This document shows positions 6,697-63,766 of a stretch of DNA of 64,000 nucleotides, piece after piece (position 1 is the stretch's first letter; the number at the start of each line of letters is the position of its first letter). This DNA is from Miscanthus floridulus (taxonomy: Eukaryota; Streptophyta; Magnoliopsida; Poales; Poaceae), in contig NC_089584.1 of the NCBI RefSeq assembly GCF_019320115.1, forward strand, positions 105,825,111 to 105,889,110. Direction: 5' to 3'. Below the pieces are notes generated by a model. The model was not told the DNA's origin and did not search any database. It saw nothing but the letters and a program-made list of their open reading frames with translations. The translations under genes were made by a program, and so were the position numbers.

Positions 6697-9021
6697 TCAT
6701 AAGCCCCTGGTACCTTGGACACATTCGAAAAAGATAAGTATATCAAAAAATGCAGGTGAGAATACCATCTCAAGCCGACAAAGAGTCTCTTTAATTGAAT
6801 TACTAAGTTTGTCAAGATCTTCTTCCACGAGCTCCTTCGAACAAAGTGCACTGAAGAACCTACTAAGCTGAATCAATGGCATGACAACTTCTTTGGGCAA
6901 AATCTTTCTGACAACTAAGGGTAACAATTTCTATAGAATAATATGGTAGCCATGTGTTTTCAGTCTAGACACCTTACATGCATTTGCGTCAACACATCTC
7001 CTTATATTGGAGCTAAACCCATCAGGCATCTTCGCTCCATGTAGAAATTGGCATAAACTTTTCTTGTCAGCCTTATCTAAAAAGTACAAGGCTGGTGGCA
7101 AGGTATAATTATCATTGTTAATGACAGGGTGCTGATCTTGCCTTATCCCTAGCCGTTCCATGTCAAGTCGGGTCTTCTCATTGTCCTTACATTTACCTTC
7201 AATTTCAAGCAAAGTACCCAATATGCTCTCGCATATGTTTTTCTTAATGTGCATCATGTCCAAATTATGCCTTATGAGCAAAGAAGACCAGTAAGGGAGC
7301 TCAAAAAAAATACTCTTCTTCCTCCAATTGTGCCATCTTTTATCTTCATCACGCTTCCTCTTTTTTGATGTCGCCTTTCCAAATATCACTTGATCAAAAG
7401 TTTCATACTGGTCCAATACCTGTTGACCAGACAGTGGTACTAGAGCCTCCCTGGTTTCCACCTCATTGTTGAAGCTCATCTTGTTCATGCGCCAAGGATG
7501 GTTCGACGGCAAAAAACGACGATGTCCCATGTAGCAGTGCTTTTTTCCAAATCTCAACCACAAATAATCCATATCCTTGTGGCAGTATGGACATGCAAAT
7601 TTGCCTTTTGTGCTCCAACCAGAAAGCATCGCATATGCAGGAAAGTCATTAATTGTCCAAAGCAGAATAGCATGTAGTTTAAAATTCTTCTTTACCTTGT
7701 CATCCCATGTATCAATTCCCTTTTCCCAAAGATCCTTCAGCTCATCAATGAGGGGCCTCAAATATACATCAATATTCATTCTAGGAGATTTTGGACCAGG
7801 AATCAACATTGACATAATCCAATAAGGTTGTTTCTCAAACAACCAAGGAGGCAAATTGTAAGGGATGAGGATAACAGGCCATGTGGTGTATGTAACATTT
7901 TGCATGCCAAAGGGGTTGAAGCCATCAGAAGCAAGACCCAACCTAATATTATGAGCTTCCTTTGCAAACCAACCATACTTGTTATCCACATGCTTCCATG
8001 CCTTCAAGTCAGCAGGGTGACGCATTTTGCCATCATCGACCAATTCTTCCTTATGCCATCGCATTTGTGATGATGTGCTCTCTGTCATATATAATCTTTG
8101 TAGCCGAGGAGTAAGAGGAAAGTACTATAGGATTTTACGTGGGACACGCTTCCTATTTGTTGTATCAGCATCACCATCTGCAATGTCCTTGTGGGCACCG
8201 TCATCGGTCGTTTTCCACCTAGACTCGCCACATTTGGGACATGTATCTAGATTTGCGTTTTCCTTCCAAAATAACACACAATCCTTCTCACAGGCATGTA
8301 TCTTTACATAGTCCAAGCCTAGATCTCAAACCACCCTTTGCACTTTCTCCATTGTGTTTAGGACACAGTGGCCTTTAGGAAAAAACCTTGAGAATAGAAT
8401 AAGTACCCCCTCCAATGCTCTATTACTAATACCGTACAAGCACTTAACCTAGAAAAGTGCAACAATAAAAGAGACCTTAGTAGCATCCTCACAACCTGGA
8501 TACAATTTCTTTTCTGCCTCCAGTAATAATTTGAAGAATATCTTTGCATGTTCATTTGACTGTTCATTGTCATTAGTATCTCTGATCTCTCCATGTATAG
8601 CGCCTCTGATTAGGGATCTAACCAAATTAGTGACACCACGATCGTCATCACTTGGTGTGCCTTCTTCGTTGTCTACTCCAACTTCATGTGGTGCGGATTC
8701 GTTGTCTACTTCTACATCAGCTGGTGGTGGTGCATCATTGTGTACTTCTACATCAGCTACTGGTGCATCTTTGTTGTGCAATCCCACATCTGAACCTTCC
8801 CCTTCCCTGATAAAGCTTTCATCAAACCCTCTATGAAGCAAATGAAGCTGAACCAGAGGCTGTGGTCTGTATGCCATGCATACACATCTAGGACATGGAC
8901 ACACAACAGTTCCACCTCTCGATGTGCCACCAAATGTGACGTCTAGAAAATTTTGGAGATTCTCCTACCACTCAATTGAAGAACGAGGCAAGCGCATCCA
9001 ACTCCTATCATCACCTAACAT
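6697..9021 (-). pseudogene. tnp2-type transposase, copy 2, truncated by the duplication
   Basis: This is the second copy of the tnp2 main exon, with its start codon at 9021 and the same stop codons at the same relative positions as copy 1, so the stops predate the duplication. The frame leaves the transposase at the duplication breakpoint (6740) in the middle of the DUF4218 domain, after FSPAFFD. It then adds about 13 unrelated residues before a stop at 6697. It lacks the rest of DUF4218 and all of DUF4216. One coding difference from copy 1 is an alanine-to-valine change in the acidic linker. Confidence 0.9.
6734..6739. other. Six-base filler at the tandem duplication junction
   Basis: The bases ATAAGT sit between the end of unit 1 (GAAAAAG, 6733) and the start of unit 2 (ATATCAAA, 6740). 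The 15 bases around the junction, 6730-6744, match 6440-6454 at 14 of 15 positions. This looks like a short templated insertion made during end joining. Confidence 0.6.
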
Positions 9022-30660: not shown

Positions 30661-32313
30661 AGCTAGCTCTCAAAACTAATTACACTAAAGAGCTTAGCTA
30701 CACTATGAATGTAAATACACAAGTGGTTGAGATGTTTATACTATCATGTAGAGAGGTGTGCCAATCATAAGATGAAGCCAATCAATTACAATAAAGTCCC
30801 GGTGACAAGAGGTGACAATGATTTTTCACCGAGGTTCACTTGCTTACCGGCAAGCTACTCCCCGTTGTGGTGATACACTCACTTAGAGGTTCACACGCTA
30901 ATTGGCATCACATGCCAAACCCTCAATAGGGTGCTACACAACCAACACAAGGTGAGGATCACACAAGCCATGAGCAATCCACTAGAGTACCTTTTGGCTT
31001 CCTACCGGGGAAAGGGCAAGAACCCCTCACAATCACCATGATCGGAGCCGAAGACAAGCACCTTCCTCCACTCAACGATCCTCATTGCACCAAGCCATCT
31101 AGGTGGCGGCAACCACCAAGAGTAACAAGTAAAATCCATAGCGAGACACGAATACCAAGTGCCTCTAGATGCAATCACTCAAGCAATGCACTTGGATTCA
31201 CTCCCAATCTCACAAAGATGATCAATCTATGATAGAGATGAATGGGAGGGCTTTGGCTAAGCTCACAAGGTTGCTATGTTAATACAAATGGCCAAGAGAG
31301 TGAGCTTGAGCTGGCCATGGGGCTTAAATAGAAGCCCCCATGAAATAGAACCATTAGGCTCTCACTTCAGCTCAACTCAGGGCGACCGAACGCGCCGATC
31401 AGATCAACCGGAAGCACCGGCCCTAGCGTCCGATCACCGATCGCCGTCCATGTGTCCCCTGAGTTCAACCTTGTGTGTATGATTTTAACGGTCGACTCGC
31501 TTCCTTGCATGTGTTAAAGAACAACCAGACTCACCAGCGAATGACCTGACTCACCCGCACTGCGTTAGATTAGTTCAACACCACGCACTTCCAACTAATG
31601 ACCGAACATGCCGGTGCTCATGACTACACTATGTTAGGTCACTTCTAGAGAGGTTCCAAAGCTCCCAAACAGTGATCGGACACGTCTGATGCACCTCGAC
31701 CGGATGCAGATCAGCGTCCAGGGCAACACCCTAAGCCGTGCTGCCATAGTTTCTACTGATCGGACTCACTAGGCCTATGTCCAGTCACTTCGTGGCATGA
31801 GTCCGATCACTGTAAAAAGTGAAAACCAACTCCTCCACTTCACCTACTTCTCCACCCTTGCTCAAATGTGCCAACCACCAAGTGTATCACCTTGTGCACG
31901 TGTGTTAGCATATTTTCACAAGCATTTTCAAGGGTGTTAGCACTCCACTAGATCTAAATGCATATGCAATGAGTTAGAACATCTAGTGGCACTTTGATAA
32001 CCGCATTTTGATATGAGTTTCATCCCTCTTAATAGTATGGCTATCGATCCTAAATGTGATTTCACTCGCTAGGTATCTTAATCACCAAACCAAAAATCTC
32101 CTATCAAATTTCACCTTTGCCTTAAACTTTTTGTTTTTCTCTTTCTTCTTTTCCAAGTCCAAGCACTTGATCATCACCATAGTCACACCATCATCATGAT
32201 CTTCATCATTGCTCCGCCACTTGGAATAGTGCCACCTGTCTCATGATCACTTAGATAAATTAGGTTAGCACTTAGGGTTTCATCAATTCACCAAAACCAA
32301 ACTAGAGCTTTCA
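30661..32313 (-). repeat. Element B 3-prime LTR (left), truncated
   Basis: It matches the right LTR from 44399 onward, beginning AGCTAGCTCTCAAAAC. It ends GCTTTCA at 32313 followed by ATCTCCCCCTTTTTGG, the complement of the polypurine tract. It contains diverged forms of the GACCGGACGC words seen in element A. Confidence 0.88.
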
Positions 32314-44161: not shown

Positions 44162-45813
44162 TGAAAGGTCCTAATGGCTAGAGGGGGTGAATAGCCTATA
44201 AAATTTCTACAACAACACTAAACAAAAAGGTTAGACAATTATGAGGCGAAGCAAATATTGTGCTAGCCTACTAAAATGCAACCCACCTACCACAATTCTA
44301 GTCCTTATGATCTCTAGGCACACAAAAGCTATGTCACTACACTAAGTGAACTCTCAATGACTAACTAAAGAGACTCACTAACCGCTAGATACGACACAAG
44401 CTAGCTCTCAAAACTAATTACACTATAGAGCTTAGCTACACTATGAATGTAAATACACAAGTGGTTGAGATGTTTATACCACCATGTAGAGAGGTGTGCC
44501 AATCACAAGATGAAGCCAATCAATTACAATAGAGTCTCGGTGACAAGAGGTGACATAATGAATTTTCACCGAGGTTCACTTGCTTGCCGGCAAGCTACTC
44601 CCCATTGTGGTGATACACTCACTTGGAGGTTCACGCACTAATTGGCATCACACGCCAAACCCACAATAGGGTGCCACACAACCAACACAAGGTGAGGATC
44701 ACACAAGCCATAGCAATCCACTAGAGTACCTTTTGGCTCTCCATCGGGGAAAGGTCAAGAACCCCTCACAATCACCATGATCGGAGCTGGAGACAAGCAC
44801 CTTCCTCCACTCAATGATCCTCGCTGCACCAAGCCATCTAGGTGGCAGCAAGCACCAAGAGTAACAAGCAAAATCCATAGCAAAACACGAATACCAAGTG
44901 CCTCTAGATGCAATCACTCAAGCAATACACTTAGATTCACTCCCAATTTCACAAAGATGATCAACCTATGATAGAGATGAATGGGAGGGCTTTGGCTAAG
45001 CTCACAAGGTTGCTATGTCAATACAAATAGCCAAGAGAGTGAGCTTGAGCTGGCCATAGGGCTTAAATAGAAGCCCCCAAGAAATAGAGCCATTGGGCTC
45101 TCACTTCAGCCCAACTTAGGGTGACCGAACGCACCGATTAGATCAATCGAACACACCAGCCCTAGTGTCCGGTCATCGATCGCCGTCCACGTGTCCCCTG
45201 AGTTTAACCTCATGTGTATGATTTTAACAGTCAACTTGCTTCCTCGCGTGTGTTAAAGAATGACTGAACTCACCAGCGAATGACCTAACTCGGTCGCGCT
45301 GTGTCATATCAGTTCAACACCACGCGCTTCCAACTAATGACCGGTCACACCGGTGCTCATGACTACACGGCGTCAGGTTGTTTCCAGAGAGGTTCTAGAG
45401 CACCCAAACAGTGATCGGACGCGTCCAATGCACCTCGATCGAATGCTGGTCAGTGTTCGGTGCAACACCCTAAGCCGTGCTACCATGGTTTCTACTGATC
45501 GGACTCACCAGGCCTATGTCTGGTCACTTCATGGCCTGAGTCCAGTCACTGTAAAATAGTGAACACTAACTCCTCCACTTAACCTACTTCTCCACCCTTG
45601 CTCAAATGTGCCAACCACCAAGTGTATCACCTTATGCATGTGTGTTAGCATATTTTAACAAGCATTTTCAAGGGTATTAGCACTTCACTAGATCTAAATG
45701 CATATGCAATGAGTTTGAACATCTAGTGGCACTTTGAAAACCACACTTTGATATGAGTTTCAACCCTCTTAATAGTACATCTATCGATCCTAAATGTGAT
45801 CTCACTCGCTAAG
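44162..45813 (-). repeat. Element B 5-prime LTR (right), cut by element C
   Basis: It begins TGAAAGGTCCTAATGGC at 44162 and follows the left LTR to CACTCGCTAAG, equivalent to about 32075. There element C starts. About 240 bp of this LTR should lie beyond elements C and D, outside the window. The last bases CTAAG (45809-45813) are the probable target duplication of C. Confidence 0.88.
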
Positions 45814-48800
45814 TGTAACAGAACCGACCAATTATATAAGATTAAGTAAGGAAAATCTTCTGCCGAAGCAGATAATTCAGCAAACTTAAGCCTGTATAAC
45901 CCGGTAGTCCATGAAACCATGAAGGATTTCAAACCAATCGACATACAAATGAAGATCATACAAGTTTAGCAAATACCGTCACATGTTACATAAAGTTTGC
46001 AATGACAGTAGGATACATCAGAGTTTGGAATATAAAGTTATTACAAACCAGGTTCAATCTGAAATAGCGGAAGCAAATAGTTTTGAAGTCACACATACAC
46101 ACTTTTAGTTCAGATACAGTGCTAGTAGGCAGTCATCTCCAACAAAAGCATCAGATGAGAGATACGGAGTGACCATTGCCCTTGGTCCTAGTTGTCAGCC
46201 ATCACCGGGTACAGGCAGTTAATGCAATAGCCGTAGTACATTTGACCATCTACAACAACAATGGGAACAACGCCCTGAGTACAAGAAGGTACTCAGCTAG
46301 ACTTATCCGTCTTAAACCAAAATAAAGCGACACCAAGGATTATGCAAGGCTTTCTTTAGTGGGCTAGCTAACTTGTTTGCGAAAAGAATAAGCTATCATA
46401 AAGAAACCATTTTAAATACTTTGCATCATCTTTATTATAACCTATCCATCTAGGTAAGCACCTGTACTATAGCAATCACTTGATTAGCCAATAACATCCC
46501 ATTACCAATTTAGATTTAGCATATCCCATACCATCCAGATAACCATCATTGTTCCATAATAATTACTACGATGCCATAGCTCAAGTCAAGTGCTCACTAT
46601 CCAGGAGCGATGGCGATTCGAATCGATTCCAAACCAGCTGGTGATTTATTCCTCACACAAACCATGCTTCCCTTGCTAGGGTAGCTTAGATCACCAAGGA
46701 TACTATTCAGGTAGCCGCGGGACAATCTGGGGCTGCAGTACCCAGGGACCGCCCGACTGCTAGGAATCAGGGCACACCTGCCCTTGGGCTCACTCTTCGC
46801 GTCCCTGTCATACCCCCATCAGCACCAATACGTGCACCCGTGTAGATCCCGGCCCAAATAGTGTCACTAGCTTCACGGTCGAAAGGTACTTTATTCGGCG
46901 AGCTAAATGTGAGGCATGCGTTCAACATGACAAAAGGGACGAGCAACGATCGGTCCTTAATCGACACAGATGGAAACTAACAGCACCCCAGAACCCTGTC
47001 TAGTTGCCTCTAACTTTTTCTGTCTGGTCTCCAATTATCCATCACACATGGTTAATTTCAGGATATCATTCTTTCCATAGCTAAATTCTTCCAGTAACCA
47101 CCTATAATGTAGGTGACCGGATATCACCGATCGCTACCGGTCTAAGCAAGGCTAAGCAGTTATTCAATCCTGACCTAACAGGGTAACAAGGTAGTAAGGT
47201 AGGCAAGGATAGTCATAAATGCATCAACGGTTTCAATCAACTCCTACCACTTAATGCAACAATATATAAACTCATATATATAGAAAGAATTGCTTTTATA
47301 AATTAGGAGACTTAGAATGCTCCGGGGCTTGCCTCGTTCGAACGAACTAGGTTGATGATCCATGCACTCGGGCAAGTCCTCTCCGGCTGCTCTTCCTTGA
47401 GCACCTCCTGTGCCTGGACTTCTTGTGGATCTGTCCCGGTCTGCTCTTCCTGAACTACTGCTAGCAACTCCTCCTGCGATCCTATATGATGCAGATGTAT
47501 GAGTGCTAATGCATAGGTGCATCGAAGAGATGACATGTAATGATCATGATATATGAAATGTAGATGAACATGTTTAACTTTATTGGACATAGTAGAAGTA
47601 AAGCCCTTCTACAAGGTAGCCAACATCATCCAAGAACATGTACTACTATACCACTACTACAACCATGGTACTAACATGCCAAGTCACCACAGCAAGTTAA
47701 GGTGCTTCAAAGATACACCAAAGCAAACATTATTAACTAATCATGCATTAAAGAAGATTTGTTTCTTTCATTTTAAACTAGGAATACAATAGCAACATAT
47801 ATTTCTAGTGCTCATAAAAATCGAAGAAAATTACAGTAGCATAGTACTACTCTAAGTAGTCTACCATAAAATTTTCATTGCATTTAGATAAGTATAACAA
47901 CCTACACAAAAATGACAAGCTATGGTGGATAATTGAGCATGAAAATACTTTGTACTACGAAAAGCGTCAAACAACAGATTTGGTATTTTTCCCATGATCT
48001 ACATAGCATACAATCACTGTACAAAAAGTTTCACCAACATGTATTATTCATATTTTTAGCCCTAGCAATTTTACAAGAAATCAGCAATTAATACACATAA
48101 CATACCTAGCCATATTTTTCCACATAACATGCATGACATATATTTTTCACAGAAAGTACATCTCAAGAATAGATAAACCAAATTGGACTCATATTTTTCT
48201 GATACATATAGGATTTACTAAACATTTCACAAGATATCAGCAATATCAAGAATTAAATAAAGCTCTACATTAAAGTATCTCAAAAATGACATGCAATATT
48301 TTTATCATATAGATCTGGTGACAAGGAACACAACAAAATTTGTTTCATCTATTTTGGAGCAATATAACTTGAGCTAGACATTTTACAAGCTTTTTAATCA
48401 ATTTTTGAAATCATTTTCTTTAAAACTGAAATTCCACCGAACCCTAATCTGCTAGGTGCACCCGGTGCAGTGCACCTAGAGGTGCTGCCACGCGGGACCC
48501 ATGGTCAAGCCAGGCCCATGTGTCAGCCAGAGCCGAGGCAGGGGCCGCCGTTGACCGGCCGGCTTTCACCGCTGGTGAGGTCACCACCAGCGGCTTCACG
48601 CTATGAGGCGGACCCGATGCGTCAAGAGCGGGCACTGGAGGAGCTCGGAAGTGAGCTCGCTGGCACGCATGGCGGTGCGGCGGCGCGGCATGCCCACGTG
48701 CAGGCACTTCCCAGCCACAGCAAGGCACGGGGAGGCGCGCACGAGGTTCGCAAGGGCAAGGCGGTGCTAACGCGCGTGAAATCGGAAGAAGAAAGGGAGC

Positions 48801-49803
48801 GAAAAGGGGAGGTCCACAGAGCCGTGCTGCTCCGGTGAGAACGGCCGTGCTCCGACGAGCAATAGCGGCCGGCTCAAGCCTTACCATGTCAAAAGGAGAC
48901 GAGCAAAAGCTACGCGATGCCAGGGTGAAGGCGTGGCGAAGACGTAGCGAGCTCCGGTGGTTGGGTGTGGCTGGGATGGCTACTCCGGCGAGGCAGCACG
49001 GCGGTGGCGGAGCGAGGGTGCTATGGCTGCTGCTTTCTGAGCGAGAGAGCCAATGAGATGGAGGAGGGGGAGGTAGGATGGAGTGGGGTGCGCGTGGTCG
49101 GACAGCCTTGAAGCAGCGCGGCCAGTCGGAACGGCACAGGCCGGTGGTGCTGCGCGGCGTGCGCTCTCTAGTGCCGGTTGGGAGTGGGCGCGGTGAACGG
49201 GCGAGGCGCGGCGTAGAGGCAGGCCAGGTGAGGTGTGGGGCAGGCCAGGCCGGCTTCGCGAACTGGGCCAAAAGCGAGGCGTGAGGCCCACTAAGGTGAA
49301 ATGCGATTTTTCAAATTATTTTCTATTCCTATTTCATTCAATGCAAAATTTGAGCAATTTCAAAGCAGTTTCAAACTTTGGCCCAAAAATAAAAGTTGCT
49401 CAAAAATTTATTCTCTACAACTTTGCTTTTAGGACCAAAGTCAAATTCCAAATAGATTTTGAATTACAAAATTAAAATCAATATTAATTTGAAACCCTAA
49501 TTTTGAAGAATTGTTTTTGAAAGCAAAATTTCGCCAAAATTTAAATATAAACTTTGCTCCAAATTGTATCCTAAATATTTATAAGCTATCTTAGTGATCA
49601 AACCAAGAAATCATATCACCCAAACATGAGCATGGCATTTCAAATAGTTTAAACATGATGAATTTCAATTTAATTTCAGCACCACATGAAATGACACTTC
49701 CTTTCTTTAGAATGGAATGCATAGATGCTGCTTATGCATAATGAAATGATGATTATGCTCATGAGATGGAATGTTAATGTATGCTTAACACCGAGGTGTT
49801 ACA
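45814..49803 (-). repeat. Element C 3-prime LTR (left), about 4 kb
   Basis: It starts TGTAAC and ends GTTACA, a 6-bp perfect terminal inverted repeat. The length, 3990 bp, is large even for this lineage. A strongly GC-rich block at about 48440-49290 is open on both strands; in the element's own sense strand it gives a 275-residue proline-, alanine- and arginine-rich frame (49271-48444). The rest is AT-rich. The first 259 bp are matched by 56545-56804. Confidence 0.9.
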
Positions 49804-49814
49804 GCCCTCCCCAC

Positions 49815-52800
49815 TTATAAGAATCTTGTCCCAAGATTTTGAGTTACGAACCATTTGTTATAAAAATCCTTATAAGCGTTTTGTAGATATTCTCCTGTTT
49901 CCCACGTCGCATCACCATCATCGTGATGACTCCACTGTATCTTATATGTTCTCACCACTTTATTCCAAGTGACTCGGTCCTTAGTGTCCAAAACTCGAAC
50001 CGGTTGCTCATGGTATTCCAAGTCTGATTTGAGCTGAATGCTCTGAGGTTCTATTCTCTCTTCCAGAACACGCAAGCACTTCTTCAACTGCGATACATGG
50101 AAGACTGGGAAGATCGAACCCATCGCTTCTGGTAACTATAACTTATAAGCCATGGGACCCTTCTTCTCTATGATCTTGTATGGTCCTACAAATCTAGGAG
50201 TAAGTTTTCTCTTTATTCCAAACCATTGTACTTTCTTCATTGGAGTAACCTTCAGATAAACATAGTCACCTACCGCAAACTCAAGCGGTCTCCTTCTCTT
50301 ATCGGCATAACTCTTCTAGCGTGACTGTGCTGCTTTCATGTTTTGTTGGATAATACGGACCTTTTTCTTAGCCTCATCAACAAAATCGATTCCGTAAAAC
50401 CTTCTTTCTCCAGGCTCAACCCAATTCAATGGTGTCCTACATTTCCTGCCATACAATGCTTCAAATGGAGCCATCTTGATACTCTCTTAGTAGTTGTTGT
50501 TGTAAGCGAACTCTGCCAAAGGTAACCATGATTCCCATGAACCTTTAGACGATAACACACAAGCTCTAAGCATATCTTCAAGAACAGCATTAACTCGCTC
50601 TATCTACCCATCTGTCTGTGGGTGGTAAGCTATACTCCGAATCAAGCTAGTACCCAAACCTTTATGAAGATGCTCCAAAAAATGAGTGGTAAACTATGAC
50701 CCACGGTCAGACACGATAGTCTTTGGTATACCATGTAATTGGACAATCTCTGCAATGTACTTCTCAGCATACTAAGGTGGTCGAAATGTTGTTTTGACTG
50801 GTAAAAAGTGAGCTGATTTGGTAAGTCGATCTACAATTACCCAAATCAAATCATTCCCCTTTTGTGTGGTGGGGAAACCGGTGATAAAATCCATACTTAT
50901 ATCATCCCATTTCCAATCTGGTACTGACAAAGGTTGCAACATTCCTACGGGTCTCATGTGAAGAGCTTTCACTCTACAACACATGTCGCAACGAGCAACA
51001 TACGCTGCAATCTCCTTCTTCATCTTCGTCCACCAATAACATGGTCTCAATTCTTGGTACATTTTGTTACTTCCAGGATGGATAGATAGCTTAGAGTGAT
51101 GAGCTTCATCCATCAATTTGTTCTTGAGCTCTCGATCTTTAGGTACAACCAGACGGTCCTTAAACCATAACACTCCTTGTTCATCCACTCTAAAGTGCTT
51201 GGTCGGTTCTTTCTTCATTTTCTCCTTGATATGGAATATTCCCTTATCTGCTTTCTGACCCTCCATGATCTTACTCTCCAAGGTACAACTGACCTGGATA
51301 TTATGCAATATAGCAGGATGCAACAAATTGAACCCATCTTCAAACAATGGTTGCACAACAAGAGAATGTGACTTCCTACTTAAGGCATCTGCCACAACAT
51401 TTGCCTTTCCCAGATGATAGTGCACATTCAGATTATAATCCTTTATTAGCTCTAACTATCTTCTTTGTTGCATATTCAACTCAGACTAAGTAAATATGTA
51501 CTTGAGACTCTTATGATCTGTAAAGATATTGCACACATTCCCAAGCAAGTAGTGTCTCCAAATCTTTAGAGCATGCACAACAGCCGCAAGCTCTAAATCA
51601 TGCGTAGGATAGTTAACCTCATGCTTCCTCAACTGATGTGAGGCATAAGCAATGACCCTTCCATCTTGCATTAGAACACATCCTAAACCATTCTTTGATG
51701 CATCGCAAAACACATCAAATGGCTTCTCTATATCCGGTTGCGCCAGAACATGAGCAGTGGTTAGCAAATTCCGCAAGGTGTAGAAAGCTGCCTCACACTC
51801 CTCTGTCCAAATGAACTTATGATCCTTTTGTAGCAAACTTGTCATTGGCTTGGCAATCTTCGAGAAGTCCGGTATAAAACGACGATGGTAACCGGCTAAT
51901 CCAAGAAAACTCCGAACCTCATGAACTATGCTTGGTGCCTTCTGGTCCATAACCTCTTGTACCTTACTAGGATCTACTGAGATTCCATTCTCAGATAGCA
52001 CATGACCGAGAAAAGGAATTGTCTTCAGCCAGAACTCACATTTACTAAACTTAGCATACAGCTAGTGATCTCTGAGTCTAGTCAAGACAATTCTTAGATG
52101 CTCTTCATGATCCTGTTCGTTCTCTGAGTATACTAGAATGTCATCAATGAACACAATCACGAACTTATCCAACTCCGGCATAAAGACCAAATTCATCAGA
52201 TACATAAAGTATGCAGGAGCATTTGTCAAACCAAAGGACATGACAAGATACTCGTACAAACCATATCTAGTGGAGAACGCGGTTTTGGGTATATCTTGTG
52301 GTCTAATCTTGATTTGATGGTACCCTGATCTCAAATCTATTTTGGAGAACACCTTGGCTTTAGACAATTGATTAAACAAGATATCAATCTAAGGTAGAGG
52401 ATACTTGTTTTTAATTGTCACCGCATTCAGTGGTCGGTAGTCCACGCACATCCATAAGGAGTTATCCTTCTTCTTCTTCTTCACGAACAGTGTGGGACAT
52501 CCCCACTCCGATGAACTTGGACGAATTAAACCCTTAGTCAATAGATCTTGGAGTTGTTTCTTCAACTCGGCTAATTCATTTAGAGGCATCCGATAAGGCC
52601 TTCTTGAGATTGGTGGTGTTCTAGGGATTAACTCAATGGCAAACTCAACATCTCTGTCCAGTGGAAGACCGGGTAACTCATCTAGAAACACGTCCGGAAA
52701 CTCACACACTACTGGAATCTTGGCTAGAAGAGTAGTTTGGACTGCACAAGTTGTACTGGTCAGATCTATTCTCTGAGGTAAGGTTACTTGAAATGTACCT

Positions 52801-54283
52801 TCTCCAATAGGTTCTTTGAGAGAAATGCTTCTTCCTCCAACATCAATTACTACTCCCATCTTAGTCATCCAGTTCATTCCTATAATCACATCCAGAACTA
52901 GCCCTCGCATAACTATCAAGTTAAGCTTATACTGCCTATTTGCTATACTCAGGGTTATCCCTCGGATTATCTGATTAGTTAATAGATCAGCCCTAGCTGA
53001 ACTGATCTGATAAGCATATTCCAATTCAACTATCTTTTGCTCATACTTTCTTGCAAATGCTTGACTTATGAATGAATGCGATAATCCAGAATCAAACAAA
53101 ACGACTGCAGGATGATTGTTGATAGAAAACATACCAGCTGTCATGGGATCTCCTTCTAGGATGTCATCAATGGTGGTGTGGTGCACACGAGCTTAGTACT
53201 GATTCTGCTGCCTCTTGGGATATGGGCAAAACTTCGCAAAGTGCCTAGTTTGATTGTAGTTGAAACACGATCCTCTTACTTGAGTAGCAGCTCCAGATGA
53301 ACTGCCTTGTCTAGTCTTGGCTTGTGGCACCGCCATCTTGAATGGCTTCTGGTTCCTTTGAGGTTGCTGGGCATTCTGATTCCTCCGCTGGGGTGGCGTA
53401 AACCTTGCACCAGGGGCAGGCGGACGATACGTAGAACGATTTGCCATTGGGGCCCTTAGCTGGGATGGACCTAACTCAAAAGCTCTCTTGCGAGTCTTGG
53501 ATGTAGCATATACATTATTGTTCTTTTCTTGCTTTAAGCAGTCACTAACAAAGTCATTGAAACCAGTTCTTGTGTTAGTACCCACGTGCTTCATCATCTT
53601 GGGATTCAGACCTCTCTTAAAACTAGCGATCTTTTTGGCATCGGTATTCACCATGTTAGAGGCATAGCGACTTAGATTATTGAATGCATGTAGATACTGG
53701 GTCACCGTCTTGGTGCCTTGGTTCAGTGCTAGAAATTCTCCAAACTTCATTTCGGTCAAACCCGGTGGAATGTAAACTCCACGAAAAGCCACCGTGAACT
53801 CCCTCCAAGTAATGTGGGCATTGGGGGGGGGGGGGAAGTGGTGCGGTGGTACTTCCACCACATTCCTGTAGGGCCTTGTAGCTGATGAGCTGCATACTCA
53901 GTTTTTAACACTTCTGTCATCCTTAGAACATGAAACTTATCTTCCATGGTGTTTATCCACTCTTCCACATCCAATGGCTCTGCCGCTTCCTTGAAAATTG
54001 GTGGTCTGGTGTCCATAAAGTCCTTGAAACTACTATACTAATTCGCTTCATGTCCACCTAGGTTTAACCCACGGCGGGTGTTGTCAGCAATATGGCGCAA
54101 TGCAGCTTCCATGTTCTATTGCATGCCCTCCATGTTGCGCTGACTTCCAAGGAACTATGCGAAGAACTATTTCGCTGTGTACGGTGGAGGAGGCGGTGGT
54201 GGTGGTGGATCACGGTTCTCATTTCTAGTGGTACTGCCACCTGCCTCAGTCGCATCATACACAGTACGACGAGTGTTCGACAT
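49815..54283 (-). pseudogene. Element C gag-pol polyprotein with C-terminal chromodomain, broken by stops
   Basis: The ATG at 54283 (MSNTRRTVYDATEAGG) opens gag, with a proline run, FMDTRPPIF and WINTMEDKFHVL. A 13-base G run (53823-53835) shifts the frame, and gag continues from 53861 to a degenerate knuckle CFNYNQTRHFAKFC (two key residues changed). From 53861 down to 49815 everything is in one frame: protease [34 protein letters not shown] and VFIDDILVY, RNase [17 protein letters not shown], integrase ([44 protein letters not shown]) and a chromodomain (VTWNKVVRTYKIQWSHH, DATWETGEYL). Stops in frame include TAG at 52389, 52062, 51486, 50772 and 50136 and TAA at 53193. Chromodomains of this lineage steer integration toward methylated histone H3. 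Confidence 0.92.
53823..53835. repeat. Run of 13 G (13 C in gag sense)
   Basis: A mononucleotide run inside gag. The gag frame before it (54283-53836) and after it (53861 onward) differ, so a slippage change in this run is the simplest cause of the frameshift. A sequencing error here is also possible. Confidence 0.8.
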
Positions 54284-54654: not shown

Positions 54655-55710
54655 CTACTCATCGTGGTCGCTGTCTAGGTCGGAGATGTCGACATCATCA
54701 CTATCTACATCATCGTCGTCATCATCAGCTGGTGCCTCAAGCTCTTCGGGATCCTTGTCCTCATCTAGATCCATCTCTATGGCTCCAGGCGGAACGTAAG
54801 GGTGGAGCTAGTTATTTAGCTGATGAACCTCCTCACGTAGGTTGTCGTTGTACTCTTCTGCATTGGCCAGCTGCTGCTCTAGCTCAACCTATCGAGCTCT
54901 TAGAACATCTTCTGCGGACCAGGCTTCATTCCTCTAGTGGAGCACATGGATCAACATGTGCTCAGCATTCCTGTTGGTGGTGGTTAGACGCTTGACCTAC
55001 TCTCTCAGTGCATGCATGTCTCTCTCATAGGCTCTAGTCCTCTAGGTCGCCTGATCCCTCTAACGAGTCAACTGAGCCATCTCTGCACTGAGCCTCTCAA
55101 TCTCGGCATCGTGATCCCTCTGAAGCTGACGTCGGTCATCGTGGGCATGACCAAGAGCACTAGACACACGTCTAAGGCTACCTTCTACTCCATCAAAAGC
55201 CTTCATCACTATGAACATGGCGCTCATGGCAGGGTTATCACTGTTCTATCCTTCTGCTGCACCAATCTCTAGAGATCTTCCTCTTGCTTGCTGCCATGAG
55301 TCAGTGGAGGGGTTGCCCCTCAGAAAGACTCCAACTAAAGCGACTACCAACTCCTAAGGAAAACAATCCATGATATCCCTTAGTATCCCAAAGGCTGCCC
55401 TGTTAGCTACTTCTTCATCAGTCCTGCCAGTTGACTCATAACGCCAACTAGTCCACTCAGAATTGTCACCTCGGGGACGAACAATGGCCTCCACAATAAC
55501 CAAGAGACCTTCTCCCAACTGCTCATTTGTCTAGAAGTAGCGGGGCTCCATTCCATCAGGATAGCCTACATAGCTGAGCACTCTCCACAAGAGTGTAGGC
55601 ATCCCAAACTCTCCAAGAAACATGTGGCGCTGATGGGTACATGGAGCAAGCTGATGGCGGGGAGCTCTGCCTTTGGTGGACTTGCGAGCGGTCTGCTTTG
55701 TGCGTGCCAT
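54655..55710 (-). pseudogene. Leader ORF of element C: histone H3 tail-like N-terminus, coiled coil, acidic tail
   Basis: From the ATG at 55710 the minus-strand frame runs 351 codons to TAG 54655-54657 without a frameshift. Residues 1-18 read MARTKQTARKSTKGRAPR, then HQLA. This is identical to the start of histone H3 through T11 and matches 18 of its first 21 residues (Met not counted). The differences are K for G12, R for K14 and H for K18; P and C replace T22 and K23. Residues 30-170 are of unknown type, about 195-300 are heptad-like and rich in E, L, R and Q (coiled coil), and 311-351 are strongly acidic (a run of six D at 329-334). Nine in-frame TAG codons, at codons 60, 119, 155, 217, 223, 238, 259, 274 and 301, break it. 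No histone fold is present, so it is not an H3 gene. It lies between primer site and gag on the sense strand, so it is part of the element. Confidence 0.9.
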
Positions 55711-56530
55711 CTATAGCAAATTTGTTTTATTACTCATGTGAGAACAAGGTTAAGTTGTCATTTTTATCAAAATGAGGTAATCAACTTATAAGGGGAGGAA
55801 CAATGCCATGAATGATTTGTAACAACATGATGCATGCACGTTCCGTACGTTCTCACAAACTTAGGAAAAATAACAATTGCTAGCGGCATGGACGGTGGCA
55901 TACAATGGTCTCTGATAAACGTAGCTAATACGTACTACACGACAGCGCTGTTATGCACCTGCAAAAGATTCACTTCAGCCCAAACCCTGACAGTATGAAA
56001 AATATGCACGAAAATAGTAAAGTAATCTACTCATCCTACACGCATCCCTAGATATACGTACAACGGTAGCAACTACCCGAACCATCGTCCTATCGATGGC
56101 ATCGTCACCACAGGATGGAATTTCCCCACACATTGGATACCTTCATACAAACATGCGTATGGCATGTAAATAATCCAGCATCATATAAGCACTTCCCTAG
56201 ATCGGCAGTGTATCCGATCATGCTCTCACAACTCTCACTTACCGAGGCGTAGAGGCAATGGATCCATACATTACCACTCAAGTGAATGGCACTCATACAA
56301 TAGCACGCCGTATGAGCAACGAAATAGAAATATGATGCAAAGACCCCTAAGTCAGTACTTAAATAAGCCACCTAGAGTCCTTAACTGGGCATAAAGGATA
56401 TGACCACTGGCACACTCTTAAGTTTTTAATTAGAGGTTAAAACACCTATATACTATAGTTTGCAATTAGTTTTGTAACACAAAATCCTTTTGTTTTAAAT
56501 ACACGCATGAACAGTAACCTGCTAAACCTT
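55711..56530 (-). other. Element C 5-prime leader with possible intron
   Basis: Noncoding on both strands. In the sense direction a donor-like TTTTGCAG|GTGCATAA occurs at about 55968-55953. The bases just before the H3-like ATG are AAATTTGCTATAG, which resemble an acceptor. A spliced leader is therefore plausible. No protein motif is seen. Confidence 0.4.
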
Positions 56531-56542
56531 GCTCTGATGCCA
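56531..56542 (-). other. Element C primer binding site
   Basis: On the minus strand TGGCATCAGAGC, two bases from the right LTR (56545). It differs by one base from the tRNA-Met site of element B. Confidence 0.85.
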
Positions 56543-56544
56543 GC

Positions 56545-56804
56545 TGTAACAGAACCGACCAATTATACGAGATTAAGTAAGGAAAATCTTCCGTCGAAGC
56601 AAATAATTTAGCAAACTTAAGCCCGTATAACCCAGTAGTCCATGAAACCACGAAGGATTTCAAACCAATCGACATACAAACCAAGATCGTACAAGTTTAG
56701 CAAATACTGTCACATGTTACATAAAGTTCGCAATGACAGTAGGATATATCAGAGTTTAGAATATAAAGTTATTACAAACCAGGTTCAATCTGAAATAGCG
56801 GAAG
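56545..56804 (-). repeat. Element C 5-prime LTR (right), first 260 bp before element D
   Basis: It matches 45814-46072 closely from TGTAACAGAACC to AATAGCGGAAG. Element D begins at 56805. The remaining 3.7 kb should lie beyond D, outside the window. Confidence 0.92.
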
Positions 56805-57277: not shown

Positions 57278-57278
57278 G

Positions 57279-57290
57279 TGGCACGCCAGG
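57279..57290 (+). other. Element D primer binding site
   Basis: TGGCACGCCAGG starts one base after the LTR end. The TGGCxCGCCAGGTAGGGGG form is typical of grass Tat-type gypsy elements and differs from the tRNA-Met site used by A, B, C and the gag-only element. Confidence 0.75.
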
Positions 57291-57325
57291 TAGGGGGTGT
57301 GCGTACTGCTCTCCAAGCAAACAAG

Positions 57326-60300
57326 ATGGTCATCATCTCTGGCTCCGTGGCTACGCCCAACGGCCCCACGTTCACCGTCGGCCAGATCACCTGGACCACC
57401 GGCTCCGACGACTCCATCGCCATGACCACGGAGGAGGCATGGATTCAACCTGCGCCGATGACTACTTCACCTGCATCGGCTACAGCTCTGACCACGGTGA
57501 ACATGGCTCCGACCACGGTGAACACGGCTCCAACCACAACGGATACGGCTCCAACCATGATGGACCTGGCTCCGACCATGGGACATCTGGCTCCGACCAC
57601 ACCTATAGCCACGCTGACAACCCGTCGTCCGCTTCCCCGCTACAGAGGAAAGCAGATCGACAACACCGACCTGCTCGACTCCGTTGATCGGGTCGGCATC
57701 CAACTCGCTGAAACCCTAGCTCTAGTAAGTACGATTCAAAGCCAACCTAACGAGCAGGTAACAGCTCCCCACAACAGATCTATCCGACCAGCTCGGACCA
57801 GTCGTCCTGCGCGACTTGGAACAGATCTTGTGGTCATATCAACTCCTGAGGGGCGTTTCGCTCGTCGCCAGCCAGCCATCGCGACGGGTCTCCGACTCTA
57901 TGAGTACAAAGTCTCGATGGAGAACCACCAGGTCTAGCCCTACGGCCTGCAAAACGCTGCCTCCAGCTACGCGTACAACCTGCGACGCCGCTCGGATCTG
58001 TGCCCTATACACCGATCTCAGCCGAAGCCATGCAACATCGTCAACATGGTCTGGATTGAAGATTATCAAGAAGGATCCATCCACACAGTCCGAGAGGGTG
58101 ACTCCAGCTCCTCATCCGGCATCGCATCCAACGCATCTGTCCACACCGAGCTTCAGCGTCACAAAGATGAAGGCGTCAAATACGATCTGGATCTACTAGA
58201 CTATGCCCTGGGTTTCCCCCATTTTCCGTCTTTCCCGCCAAGACGAGGGGATTTGATCCATGTTGTCAGCAACGACGAGCCGCCAGCAGTTGGCGAAACA
58301 GAACAAGAAAAGACTGCACGCGAAGCACGCAATATTAACCGGTTTAATCGTCGGCAAATCGAAGCTGAAGCAGACCAGGAGGCACGACGCATAAGGGTCC
58401 AACCACGTGACCTCAACAATGCTTTCGATAGGGTGGGGGACAAACAAGTCTTCAAGACCCCAAGCACCAACGTAGCCGTCGCCATGGCGACAATGCAGCG
58501 GCTGCCCAACACTCCCGAGACCCAAGCAATCCGTGATGACATACAAGCTTATCTGATGGCTGCTATGGCTCAGACCACAGAGATGAATCAAGCCCGGGCT
58601 CCATCCGTTTATGTCGAATCAAGCCACAGCCGCCAATACTCAAGTCGCTCACAGTCACTCAACCAACGTGGCTCGCACAATAACGACCCATCGGACAACC
58701 GTCAAGGCGGAAACAGTGGTCATGATGGTGGTCGGGACGACAACCGCCGCCGGGAGGATAACCACCATGACGTTCGAGGCGACAACCGCCGAGATAACCG
58801 CGACAATCGCCGTGATAACCACGGTCGCAGGGCTAATCCAGATGGCAATCGAGATTGCCGCGATGGCAATAACGATCTCCGCCATTACCTCGTCGGACGT
58901 GATCTGCGCGCTCGCATCAACCAGAGAGCCAACGATCGTGCATCCCATGAAAGTTATCGCCGTATGGAATATGACACTGCCCACGGCCCGCCGGGTTTGA
59001 AGCAGTTCACTCCACACCTTCGCCAAGTCATATGGCCCAAGAATTTCAAACTCGAGAAACTTCAGAAGTACGACGGCAAGGAAAACCCCGAATTATGGGT
59101 CATGCTCTACGAAACTGCGTGCCGCTCAGCCATGGCTGACGAGCACGTCATGTCTAACTACTTCCCAGTCGCTGTTGGTCATGCAGGTCACCAATGGCTG
59201 GTTAGCTTGCCAGCGAACTATTTTGACTCTTGGCAGGAGCTCAGGTAGGCCTTCATCGACAATTTCATCGCTACTTGTGAGCAACCCGGCAACAAGTACA
59301 ATCTGCAATGGATCCGAGATCGGAAGGATGAACCACTACGCAAGTATGTTCGGCTTTTCTCGGAGATGCGCATCAAGGTCCCATCAATCTCCGACAACGA
59401 AGCAATCGAGGCTTTCGTCACCGGCCTCCGCTTCCACGACGCATTAAGAGACAAGCTCCTCCGGAAGAGACCCGAATTAGTCACAGTGCTTTTGGCCACC
59501 GCTAAGAAATACGCGAACGCTGACGACGCTAAAAAGATAATCGTTGAAGAAGCAGCAAGGGTTCCACGCTCCGACCACCCCCCACACCGCGACGATTACC
59601 GCGGCAATCGTGGCCAAAACGACAATTTTGACCGCCGCAACCAGCGCAACGACTCCCGCGACCACCGTGATCAACGTAATTAGCGGCGCAACCGCCGTGA
59701 CGATTACAGGAGCAAGCGCGCTCGGGAAGACGACGGTGAGGTCAATACCGTGAAAAAGGGCAGCGGACGTCGTAACCATGAGGACGACTACGCCAAAGCA
59801 TTGAAGGGGCCCTGCCAGCTCCATCCTAAGTCAAACCACACCATGGAGAATTGCCGCGTCCTCAAGACTATCTACACGCGTCAACAGGCTCCGGATACGT
59901 TCGACAAGCCTAACGATGCGGGGGAACAGCGCAACGAGGACAACGACGACGACGATGCAGACCCTCATCATAAATACGTCAAGCCAACTGATCGCGTGCA
60001 CACAATCATCGGCGGCAAGGTGTCCATTGAGACCAAACGAGAACGCAAGCTGCTCGCCCGCGCTTGCTTGAACGTGGCAAACACCGACAACCTTCTCACC
60101 GATCCGCGGCTTCCTCCGTGGTCTCACCGTGAAATCTACTTCAGCAGGAAGGACCAATGGGCCGCCATACCCGAGCCAGGGCGTTTTCCCCTGGTCCTCG
60201 ATCCTTGTATCAACAAGGTTCAATTCGATAGGGTACTGATCGACGGCGGCAGCTCCATTGATATACTGTTCAAGAACAGCCTGCCCGCTCTGAAAATAGC

Positions 60301-63300
60301 CCAGGCGGACCTGAAGCCATACGAGGCATACTTCTGGGGCGTTCTCCCCGGACAGAGCTCCACACCTCTCGGGCAGATCACGCTACCTGTGCAATTTGGG
60401 ACTCCGAACCACTTCCGCACCGACTACGTGGAGATCCCAGAGCTTGAGGCTCCGCGCAAGAACATCAGGTCCAAGGAGCACAAGACGATCCAGCTGGTCG
60501 AGGGCGATCCCAGCAAAACGGCCCTCATCGGGGCCGACCTGGATCCCAAATAGGAAGACGCGCTCGTTAGGTTCTTGAGGGGCAACGTGGATGTGTTTGC
60601 ATGGAAACCTTCCGACATGCCCGATGTACCTCGGAACTTGATTGAGCACTCCTTAAATGTCAACAGCAAGGCCAAACCAATCAAGCAGAAGCTACGACGG
60701 TTCGCTCACGACAAAAAGGAGGCGATTAGGGTAGAAGTTACACGGCTTTTGGCAGCCGGATTTATCAAAGAAGTGTATCATCCGGAATGGTTAGCTAACC
60801 TGGTTCTTGTACGCAAAAAGAATAATGAATGGAGAATGTGCGTTGATTACACTGATCTCAACAAACACTGCCCTAAGGACCCCTTCGGCTTACCTCGCAT
60901 AGACGAGGTCGTAGATTCAACCGCCAGTTGCGAGCTGCTTTCCTTTCTCGATTGCTACTCTGGTTATCACCGGATCGCTCTCAAAAAGGACGACCAGATC
61001 AAGACATCTTTCATCACGCCTTTCGGTGCCTACTGCTACACGACTATGTCGTTCGGGCTCAAAAACACCGGGGCTACCTACCAACGTGCTATACAGGCCT
61101 GCCTCAACGACGAGATAAAAGACGGCCCCGTCGAGGCTTATGTTGACGATATAGTTGTCAAAACCAAGGAAGCACATACCCTTGTTGACAATCTAGAACG
61201 CACCTTCGCAGCCCTTAATACGTTCCAATGGAAATTAAACCCAAAGAAGTGCATCTTTGGTATCCCTTCTGGCATATTGCTCGGCAACGTCGTCAGTTAC
61301 GACGGCATACGCCCTAACCTGGAGAAAGTCAAAGCTGTCTTAGACATGAAGCCCCCAAAAAAGGTGAAGGATGTCCAGAAGCTTACCGGCTGCATGGCTG
61401 CTCTAAGCCGTTTCATATCAAGATTAGGAGAAAAAGGACTACCGTTCTTCAAACTGCTCAAAGCGTCCGAGAAGTTTGAGTGGTTGGAGGAAGCAGACGC
61501 TGCCTTCACGCAGCTAAAACAATACCTCACATCACCTCCGGTACTTACTGCTCCCAGAGAAGACGAAACTCTCCTACTTTACATTGCGGCAACCGATCGG
61601 GTGGTTTCCACTACAATGGTGGTCGAGCGCGACGAGCCGGGCCACGCCTACAAGGTACAGCGGCCAATTTATTTCATTAGTGAGGTACTCAACGAATCCA
61701 AGACCAGGTACCCATAGATTCAGAAACTGCTCTACGCCATACTGATAACATCCCGAAAGTTGAGACATTACTTCGACGGATATCGTGTGGTGGTCATGAC
61801 CGAGTATCCTTTGGGGGACATCATTCGCAATATGGATGCGAACGGGCGCATCGTCAAATGGGCAATGGAGCTATGCCCCTTTTCCTTGGAATTTGCAAGC
61901 CGTACTACAATCAAGTCTCAGGCACTCGTCGATTTCATCGTCGAGTGGACAGACTTAAGCACGCCTGCCTCTCCGGGATCCGACGAATATTGGACGATGT
62001 ACTTCGACGGTTCTCTCAACATTGATGGTGCGGGAGCAGGAGTTCTTTTTGTGTCACCATCCAAGGAGCAGCTCCGGTACGTCCTCAGGATTTATTTCCC
62101 TGCATCTAATAATGCCGCTGAGTATGAAGCATGCCTGCATGGTCTACGAATTGCGGTTGAGCTTGGAGTTAAACGTCTCTATGTCTACGGAGATTCGGCT
62201 CTAGTCATCAACCAACTCAACAAGGACTGGGACACGACCAGTGAAAAGATGGACGCATATTGCAAATCGATAAGAAAGCAGGAAGGCAGGTTCTATGGCA
62301 TCGAGTACATACACGTGGTCCGGGACAAGAACCAGGCAGCGGATGCGTTGTCAAAGTTAGGATCATCCCAAGCCAAAATCCCACATGGCGTATTCGTCCA
62401 AGACCTGCTCACGCCTTCCATTGAAGACGAAGATTCAACGACCGACAAAGTTTCAGACCAGCAATTAGTGGCTACGGTTCCGGCGCCGAGCACAACCGAG
62501 CCGCTTCCGACCACTCATGAGCCGGATTGGAGAACACCTTTCATCAAGTACTTAACAGATGGTAGCGGTTATATCGATCGAACAGAAAATGAGCGCCTGA
62601 TGCGTCGTAGTAAGCAGTATCTGCTCGTCAATGGCAAGTTATGGCGCAAAAACGCTAAGGAGGAAATCTTGATGAAGTGCATAACCCAGGAGGAAGGCGA
62701 GCATCTCCTAGACCAAATCCACTCTGGCTCCTGCGGCAACCACGTGGCCTCAAGAACACTAGTCGGTAAGGCTTTCCGAGCAGGGTTCTATTGGCCGTCA
62801 GCAGTGGCCGACGCAGAGAAGCTAGTCCACCACTGTGAGGGTTGTCAGTTCTTCTCCAAGAGAATCCATGTACCAGCACATGAGATCCAGATGATTCTAG
62901 CCTCTTGGCCCTTCGCATGCTGGGGACTGGACATGATCGGGCCTTTCAAACCAGCTCCTGGGAAATTTACATGCGTCTTCGTGCTAATTGATAAGTTTTC
63001 TAAGTGGATAGAATACATGCCTCTGGTACAGGCATCCTCAGAGAAAGCTGTCACATTCCTCGACTAGGTCATCCACCATTTCGGCATGCCCAACAACATC
63101 ATTACTGATCTGGGTACTCAGTTCACCGGGAACGCTTTTTGGGACTTCTGCGATGAAAGGAGCATAGTTGTAAAATACGTCTCGGTGGCGCACCCTAGAG
63201 CTAATGGACAAGTCGAGCGGGCTAATGGCATGATCTTGGACGCATTGAAGAAGAGGATGTACAGAGAAAATGATAAAGCTCCTGGAAGATGGCTCAAGGA

Positions 63301-63766
63301 GTTACCAGCCATGGTCTGGGGCCTCCGAACTCAGCCCAGTCGTAACACCGGCGTCTCACCATACTTTATGGTTTACGGCGCTGAGGCAGTCCTCCCACCA
63401 GATATAGCTTTCAGATCAGCATGGGTAGAGAACTTCGATGAAGGCAAGGTCAATGAAGTACGGGAGCTAGAAGTCAACAGCGCAGAGGAGAAAAGGCTTG
63501 ATTCTTGCGTACGCACGGCCAAATACCTTGCTGTTTTGCGCAGGTACTACAACAAGAACGTTAAAGAGCGTTTCTTCGTGGTCGGGGACTTAGTCCTGAA
63601 GTGGAAGACGAACCAGGCTGGTGTCCACAAACTCGCAACCCCATGGGAGGGACCCTTCATGATCAAGGAAGTCACACATCCAACGTCTTACAGGTTAGCT
63701 CATCTGGACGGCATGGATGTACCAAACTCATGGCACATCGACAAGCTTAGACGTTTCTATGCTTAA
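57326..63766 (+). pseudogene. Element D gag-pol polyprotein, one frame with six TAG stops
   Basis: A single frame runs about 2150 codons from ATG 57326 (MVIISGSVATPNGPTF) to TAA 63764-63766 with no frameshift. In order: five 7-residue repeats ending APT (57494-57598); gag (PKNFKLEKLQKYDGKENPE, FIDNFIATCEQPG, RKYVRLFSEMR); a CxxH knuckle-like CQLHPKSNHTMENC; protease VLIDGGSSIDILF (about 60235); RT (LVLVRKKNNEWRMCVDYTDL, EAYVDDIVVK at about 61135); RNase H; a second RNase H (YFDGSLNIDGAGAG, NNAAEYEACLHGL, YGDSALVINQ); and integrase (HHCEGCQFF, WGLDMIGPF, IITDLGTQFTG, NGQVERANG). TAG stops lie at 57935, 59246, 59681, 60551, 61715 and 63065; each falls where glutamine is likely. Without them the protein would be complete for replication and integration. 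Confidence 0.93.
57494..57598 (+). repeat. Five 21-bp tandem repeats in the element D gag N-terminus
   Basis: The units end GGCTCCGACC or GGCTCCAACC and encode seven residues each, ending AlaProThr (TVNMAPT, TVNTAPT, TTDTAPT, MMDLAPT, MGHLAPT). The period keeps the frame. The repeats probably arose by slippage and give a flexible N-terminal arm. Confidence 0.85.

Follow-up and report, generated by a model that had tools for sequence, protein, structure and literature searches.

An additional sense open reading frame upstream of gag-pol, ORF0, has been described for the gypsy elements RIRE3, RIRE8, and Retrosat2. According to the available part of PMC3485330, this ORF0 diverges fast and could not be given a function; the paper infers hydrolase-like enzymes and gives LTRs of about 3 kb or more. 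A short H3-like sequence at a protein terminus is found in influenza NS1, in which four C-terminal residues (ARSK against ARTK) are considered a substitute for the H3 tail, according to the available part of PMC7600879. In plants, the VANDAL transposons encode VANC, a protein that works against silent chromatin and binds its own DNA sequence-specifically (PMC10398659, in the part available). The word histone occurs 0 times in the main texts of PMC3485330 and of PMC7264820, a review of additional ORFs, and no description of an H3 tail in an LTR-retrotransposon ORF was found in the searchable literature, to which most subscription papers, including the original description of RIRE3/RIRE8, do not belong.

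The window analysed here is the whole stretch of 64,000 nucleotides. It holds a Ty3/gypsy retrotransposon with long LTRs, and the frame in question is an accessory gene of this element, decayed and placed ahead of gag. A position upstream of gag had been given in the preliminary description and is borne out by the minus-strand element, in which the extra sense ORF (55710-54655) lies before the gag ATG at 54283, 371 nt past the ORF0 stop. The likeness to the ORF0 elements was judged by layout and LTR length, with the 3990-bp length of the 3' LTR depending on a start taken from the terminal motif. The enzyme reading of ORF0 in the available part of PMC3485330 was considered and found unsupported, as the structure models, which are of relatives of the window frame and not of rice proteins, show a dsRBD fold and a long helix in place of a hydrolase-like enzyme. 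Unlike that of NS1, the H3-like sequence is about 22 residues long and N-terminal on a transposon protein; VANC is compared by its described function, not by sequence, and the countering of silent chromatin shown there is proposed here. The features are as follows.

45814..49803, minus strand: 3' LTR, 3990 bp, TGTAACACC...TGTTACA; start placed from the terminal motif and purine tract rather than from a second copy, the 5' LTR being reduced to 260 bp
49804..49814, minus strand: purine-rich tract preceding the 3' LTR (sequence)
49815..53186, minus strand: pol, broken, with protease, RT/RNase H, and integrase pieces (Pfam RVP_2, RT_RNaseH, and Integrase_H2C2 on separate open pieces; stops counted)
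49818..50135, minus strand: integrase C-terminal piece with a chromodomain-like stretch (Pfam Chromo, E 0.0025, 18.2 bits, cut-off 25.1)
53193..54283, minus strand: gag region, broken, ATG at 54283 (Pfam Retrotrans_gag on 53193-53861)
54655..55710, minus strand: ORF0-like accessory frame, 351 codons plus stop, nine internal TAG stops (sequence; relatives)
54658..54804, minus strand: acidic C-terminal end, codons 303-351 (sequence; acidic in 10/10 relatives examined)
54805..55233, minus strand: stretch matching a predicted long helix, codons 160-302 (helix 124-266 in the P0001 model)
55363..55602, minus strand: stretch matching a predicted dsRBD fold, codons 37-116 (relatives' models, structure comparison, gap-free alignment to P0102)
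55645..55710, minus strand: H3-like tail, codons 1-22 (19/22 identical to H3; PDB H3 matches; 17 relatives)
55711..55713, minus strand: TAG immediately upstream of the ATG of ORF0, possible 3' splice site (Q before Met in 8/8 relatives with a residue there)
55711..56544, minus strand: leader, 834 nt, 23 ATGs (sequence)
56531..56542, minus strand: primer binding site, TGGCATCAGAGC, two bases past the LTR end
56545..56804, minus strand: remaining 5' LTR end, 94% identical to 45814-46073

The H3-like tail and its relatives

Translation of 55710 to 55639 on the minus strand gives MARTKQTARKSTKGRAPRHQLAPC, from the 72 bases in which the preliminary description had read an H3 tail matched at A1-T11 and at G13, A15, P16, R17, Q19, L20, and A21. 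That reading was confirmed: 19 of 22 residues (Met included) are those of H3, and over H3 residues 1-21 the only changes are G12K, K14R, and K18H, with K4, R8, K9, and S10 kept as claimed. The first in-frame stop is at codon 60, as noted earlier, and the frame stays in register to codon 351. A PDB search with the first 59 residues returned 127 distinct sequences at E <= 0.01 (best E 3.9e-6), and the 60 listed were all named H3, H3 variant, or H3 peptide (one Cse4). The N-terminal tail is the part of histone H3 present in the window frame, and the histone fold is absent, in agreement with the earlier description: no histone family was listed in Pfam scans of 11 relatives, and no histone fold was seen in the predicted structures of relatives P0001 and P0098. 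An origin of the match by chance or from a histone pseudogene was considered and rejected on the PDB matches, the identity to H3, and the 17 relatives with the same start; chance had been dismissed beforehand from the match itself.

Relatives were collected by two protein searches, one with the stop-masked window frame including the tail (29 matches) and one with an alignment of nine sequences from which the tail had been removed (433 matches from 7,996 scored candidates; 120 listed). The first search plus the 120 listed matches of the tail-free search made a combined set of 127 proteins. Among the matches listed, the H3-like start is present in 17/127 relatives, 14 of which are within the 120 listed by the tail-free profile. 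Eight tail-bearing proteins were first found by the tail-free search (P0058, P0097, P0098, P0099, P0101, P0102, P0125, and P0127), and P0026, P0028, and P0029 came from the tail-containing query only, P0028 and P0029 being matched mainly over the tail, with query coverage of 11% and 7%, respectively.

The tail-bearing proteins were sorted by pairwise identities, not by a tree, into five groups: a window-like group (P0028, P0098, and P0102), three single-member groups (P0058; P0127; P0029), and a short form of 11 proteins (P0021-P0027, P0097, P0099, P0101, and P0125). The tail stands at the start of the frame and is present in all five of these divergent groups. The body of P0029, the most divergent member, was linked to the others without the tail using hhalign (probability 96.9, E 1.9e-10, 97 columns); the sole match in a protein search with this body was P0029 itself. 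A one-off capture of H3 sequence in the window copy alone was rejected, as relatives carry the tail; its presence in 17 of the 127 listed relatives and in five groups, together with the tail-free link to P0029, supports the earlier view of a family feature. The element family with the H3-tail protein likely belongs to grasses. DNA of relatives was not found in viral_contigs (queries P0001, P0011, P0024, and P0030) or in genome_contigs (query P0011). In the Miscanthus floridulus protein P0020, a pol-like piece is joined to an ORF0 C-terminus, with 84% identity across 23% of the query.

Tail positions were counted in 18 sequences (17 relatives and the window), 15-19 of whose 22 N-terminal residues are identical to H3, and all conservation evidence is from protein-level comparison. 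A1, R2, T3, A7, K9, S10, P16, L20, and A21 are unchanged in 18/18, K4 is kept in 17/18, and R8 is kept in 16/18. The tail differs from that of H3, besides sitting on a retrotransposon frame without the histone fold, in that K14, K18, and K23 are kept in 0/18, the usual replacements being R14 (17/18), H18 (17/18), and R23 (15/18). These common changes suggest one capture inherited by all groups. Tail identity between groups is 73-91%. The tail of P0029 is 82-91% identical to the others and its body 29-44% in best local matches, some of them short; in its pairs (5/5), 18-20 of 22 tail residues are identical versus 6-11 in the best body window. Of the ten pairs that do not involve P0029, the tail is better conserved than any body window in three and is matched in conservation by a body window in seven (win-P0102, win-P0058, win-P0127, win-P0101, P0102-P0127, P0058-P0127, and P0127-P0101), because the MPTLLW region and the helix part NEAW...EEYN are also well kept.

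Start and architecture of the accessory protein

As called, 110/127 relatives have no tail; 31 of these begin exactly at the inner MPTLLW Met (one reads MLTLLW), and four (P0019, P0036, P0057, and P0078) start somewhat upstream of it. Of the proteins that reach at least 34 residues upstream of MPTLLW, 5/5 have the tail (P0028, P0058, P0098, P0102, and P0127); P0028 came from the tail-holding query, and the other four are also in the tail-free search. Calls that begin at the inner Met also occur among close relatives of tail-bearing proteins, so start choice by gene callers or upstream breaks likely account for the tail-less calls; the inner Met is possibly a second real start. The H3-like sequence sits at the terminus of the called ORF in 9/17 tail-bearing relatives, and in the other 8 the called frame extends further upstream, running 12 residues upstream of the tail in six short-form relatives. 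Where a residue precedes the tail Met it is Q in 8/8 relatives, six of them of the short form. The gag ATG directly follows an AG-ending acceptor-like sequence (ATGCAG before the ATG), as does the ORF0 ATG. Acceptor-like sequences before both ATGs suggest alternative splicing to the two ORFs; alternative 3' splice sites in these positions would make each ATG the first AUG, bypassing the 23 leader ATGs, and removal of the first Met would leave A1 free.

Structure models were made of relatives P0001 and P0098, not of the window frame itself. An alpha-beta-beta-beta-alpha fold is present in the models and was assigned to dsRBDs by structure comparison. A dsRBD fold behind the tail is predicted from modelling for the window's group and from alignment for two other groups, and this part is absent from the short form and P0029, both of which keep the tail. 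The KKxAK motif holds the RNA-contact lysines of dsRBDs; here lysines occur at its three positions in 0, 3, and 0 of 29 rows (2/31 rows not covered). Identity of the dsRBD-like part to the plant dsRBD proteins DRB7.2 and DCL4 (dsRBD2) is 14-17%, and the accessory protein differs from them in its mostly missing KKxAK lysines and in carrying an H3 tail and a long helix as well. The helix is likely a coiled coil. No Pfam family was above its cut-off in the 11 relatives scanned; precomputed Pfam labels in the database listing were PF19220 on P0002, PF27921 on P0070, and PF24626 on P0020. The predicted dsRBD fold and the loss of K14, K18, and K23 throughout are additions to the preliminary description.

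Possible roles of the tail

The conserved tail is read here as a putative decoy that would occupy host H3-tail readers and the H3K9 methylation machinery, with new copies escaping silencing; the probability of this reading is put at about 0.42. K4 and K9 would stay open to methylation and reading, and replacement of K14, K18, and K23 (mostly by R, H, and R) would prevent acetylation there, so that the tail would always look silent. The long helix, as modelled, would bundle two or more tails and make them multivalent; in excess, such tails would weaken the H3K9-CHG methylation loop. Mimicry is partial, since Q5, T11, and Q19 as well as the acetylation sites are not kept in the family. Further points against the decoy are that the window copy itself did not escape silencing-like decay and that a general decoy could harm the host, as raised in the available part of PMC10398659. 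The conserved tail, which retains methylation sites but not acetylation sites, offers a concrete hypothesis for ORF0 of long-LTR grass retrotransposons, namely, transposon histone mimicry against the H3K9/CHG silencing loop. If true, retrotransposons would have evolved chromatin mimicry of a kind known from viruses. The dsRBD fold is without the usual RNA-contact lysines, and its partner may be a DRB or Dicer protein of the host instead of dsRNA. A doubtful extension of the decoy reading is that grass LTR retrotransposons evolved a dedicated anti-silencing protein, in which an unacetylatable (at K14, K18, and K23) multivalent H3 tail on a coiled coil, joined in several groups by a dsRBD-fold arm engaging Dicer/DRB, would hit both the chromatin and the small-RNA arms of silencing.

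The main rivals to the decoy are an H3-type import signal and chromodomain docking. The H3 tail is a known import signal, and the accessory tail could be an H3-type nuclear import signal or a basic nucleic-acid-binding arm kept for its charge, which is largely retained at the lost lysines through R14, H18, and R23; a charge-based signal would not require the exact A1-R2-T3, A7, and K9-S10 seen in 18/18 sequences, and this account is distinctly unlikely. A tail left over without function from a single ancient capture of an H3 5' exon would fit the common changes at 14, 18, and 23 and the constant Q before the Met; this is nevertheless improbable, given that the tail of P0029 has been kept much better than its body, whose best local matches include short ones.

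In the docking account, the tail would be a peptide ligand of the element's own integrase chromodomain, by which the accessory protein would be attached to the integration complex and would guide this complex to heterochromatin or to sites inside it. The same element does carry a chromodomain-like stretch at the integrase C-terminus, and according to the available part of PMC3350952 (2012) the interacting factor of plant type II chromodomains was not found, so that docking, if true, would bear on what these chromodomains bind. This explanation is unlikely: the Chromo match is under the Pfam cut-off, type II chromodomains have lost residues essential in classical ones (PMC3350952, in the part available), and homologous elements outside grasses are without ORF0 according to the available part of PMC3485330, which would make docking a grass addition.

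The host element and its neighbours

Pfam matches on open pieces identify the element as a minus-strand Ty3/gypsy retrotransposon with broken gag and pol. The Tekay chromovirus has a chromodomain at the integrase C-terminus; the match in the window element (E 0.0025) is under the curated cut-off. The primer binding site is presumably of the tRNA-Met type. Internal in-frame stops are TAG in 9/9 cases in the ORF0 frame and in 9/11 in the gag-pol frame (53861-49815, minus strand), as expected of decay at methylated CHG sites, and the window element was therefore exposed to the CHG silencing pathway.

The 5' LTR can be recognised for 260 bp only. The DNA from 56805 onward leads into a second gag-pol element, on the plus strand (ORFs 57278-63766), whose insertion site probably lay within or next to that LTR. 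At the other end, 1.4 kb directly adjoining the 3' LTR end (44399-45811) are 90.7% identical to 30661-32071. Further away, 1394-2551 and 6931-8088 (minus strand, about 5.5 kb apart) hold the same 385-aa ORF, identical as listed, each copy with a 151-aa ORF upstream; the pair resembles a duplicated transposase region of the CACTA type.
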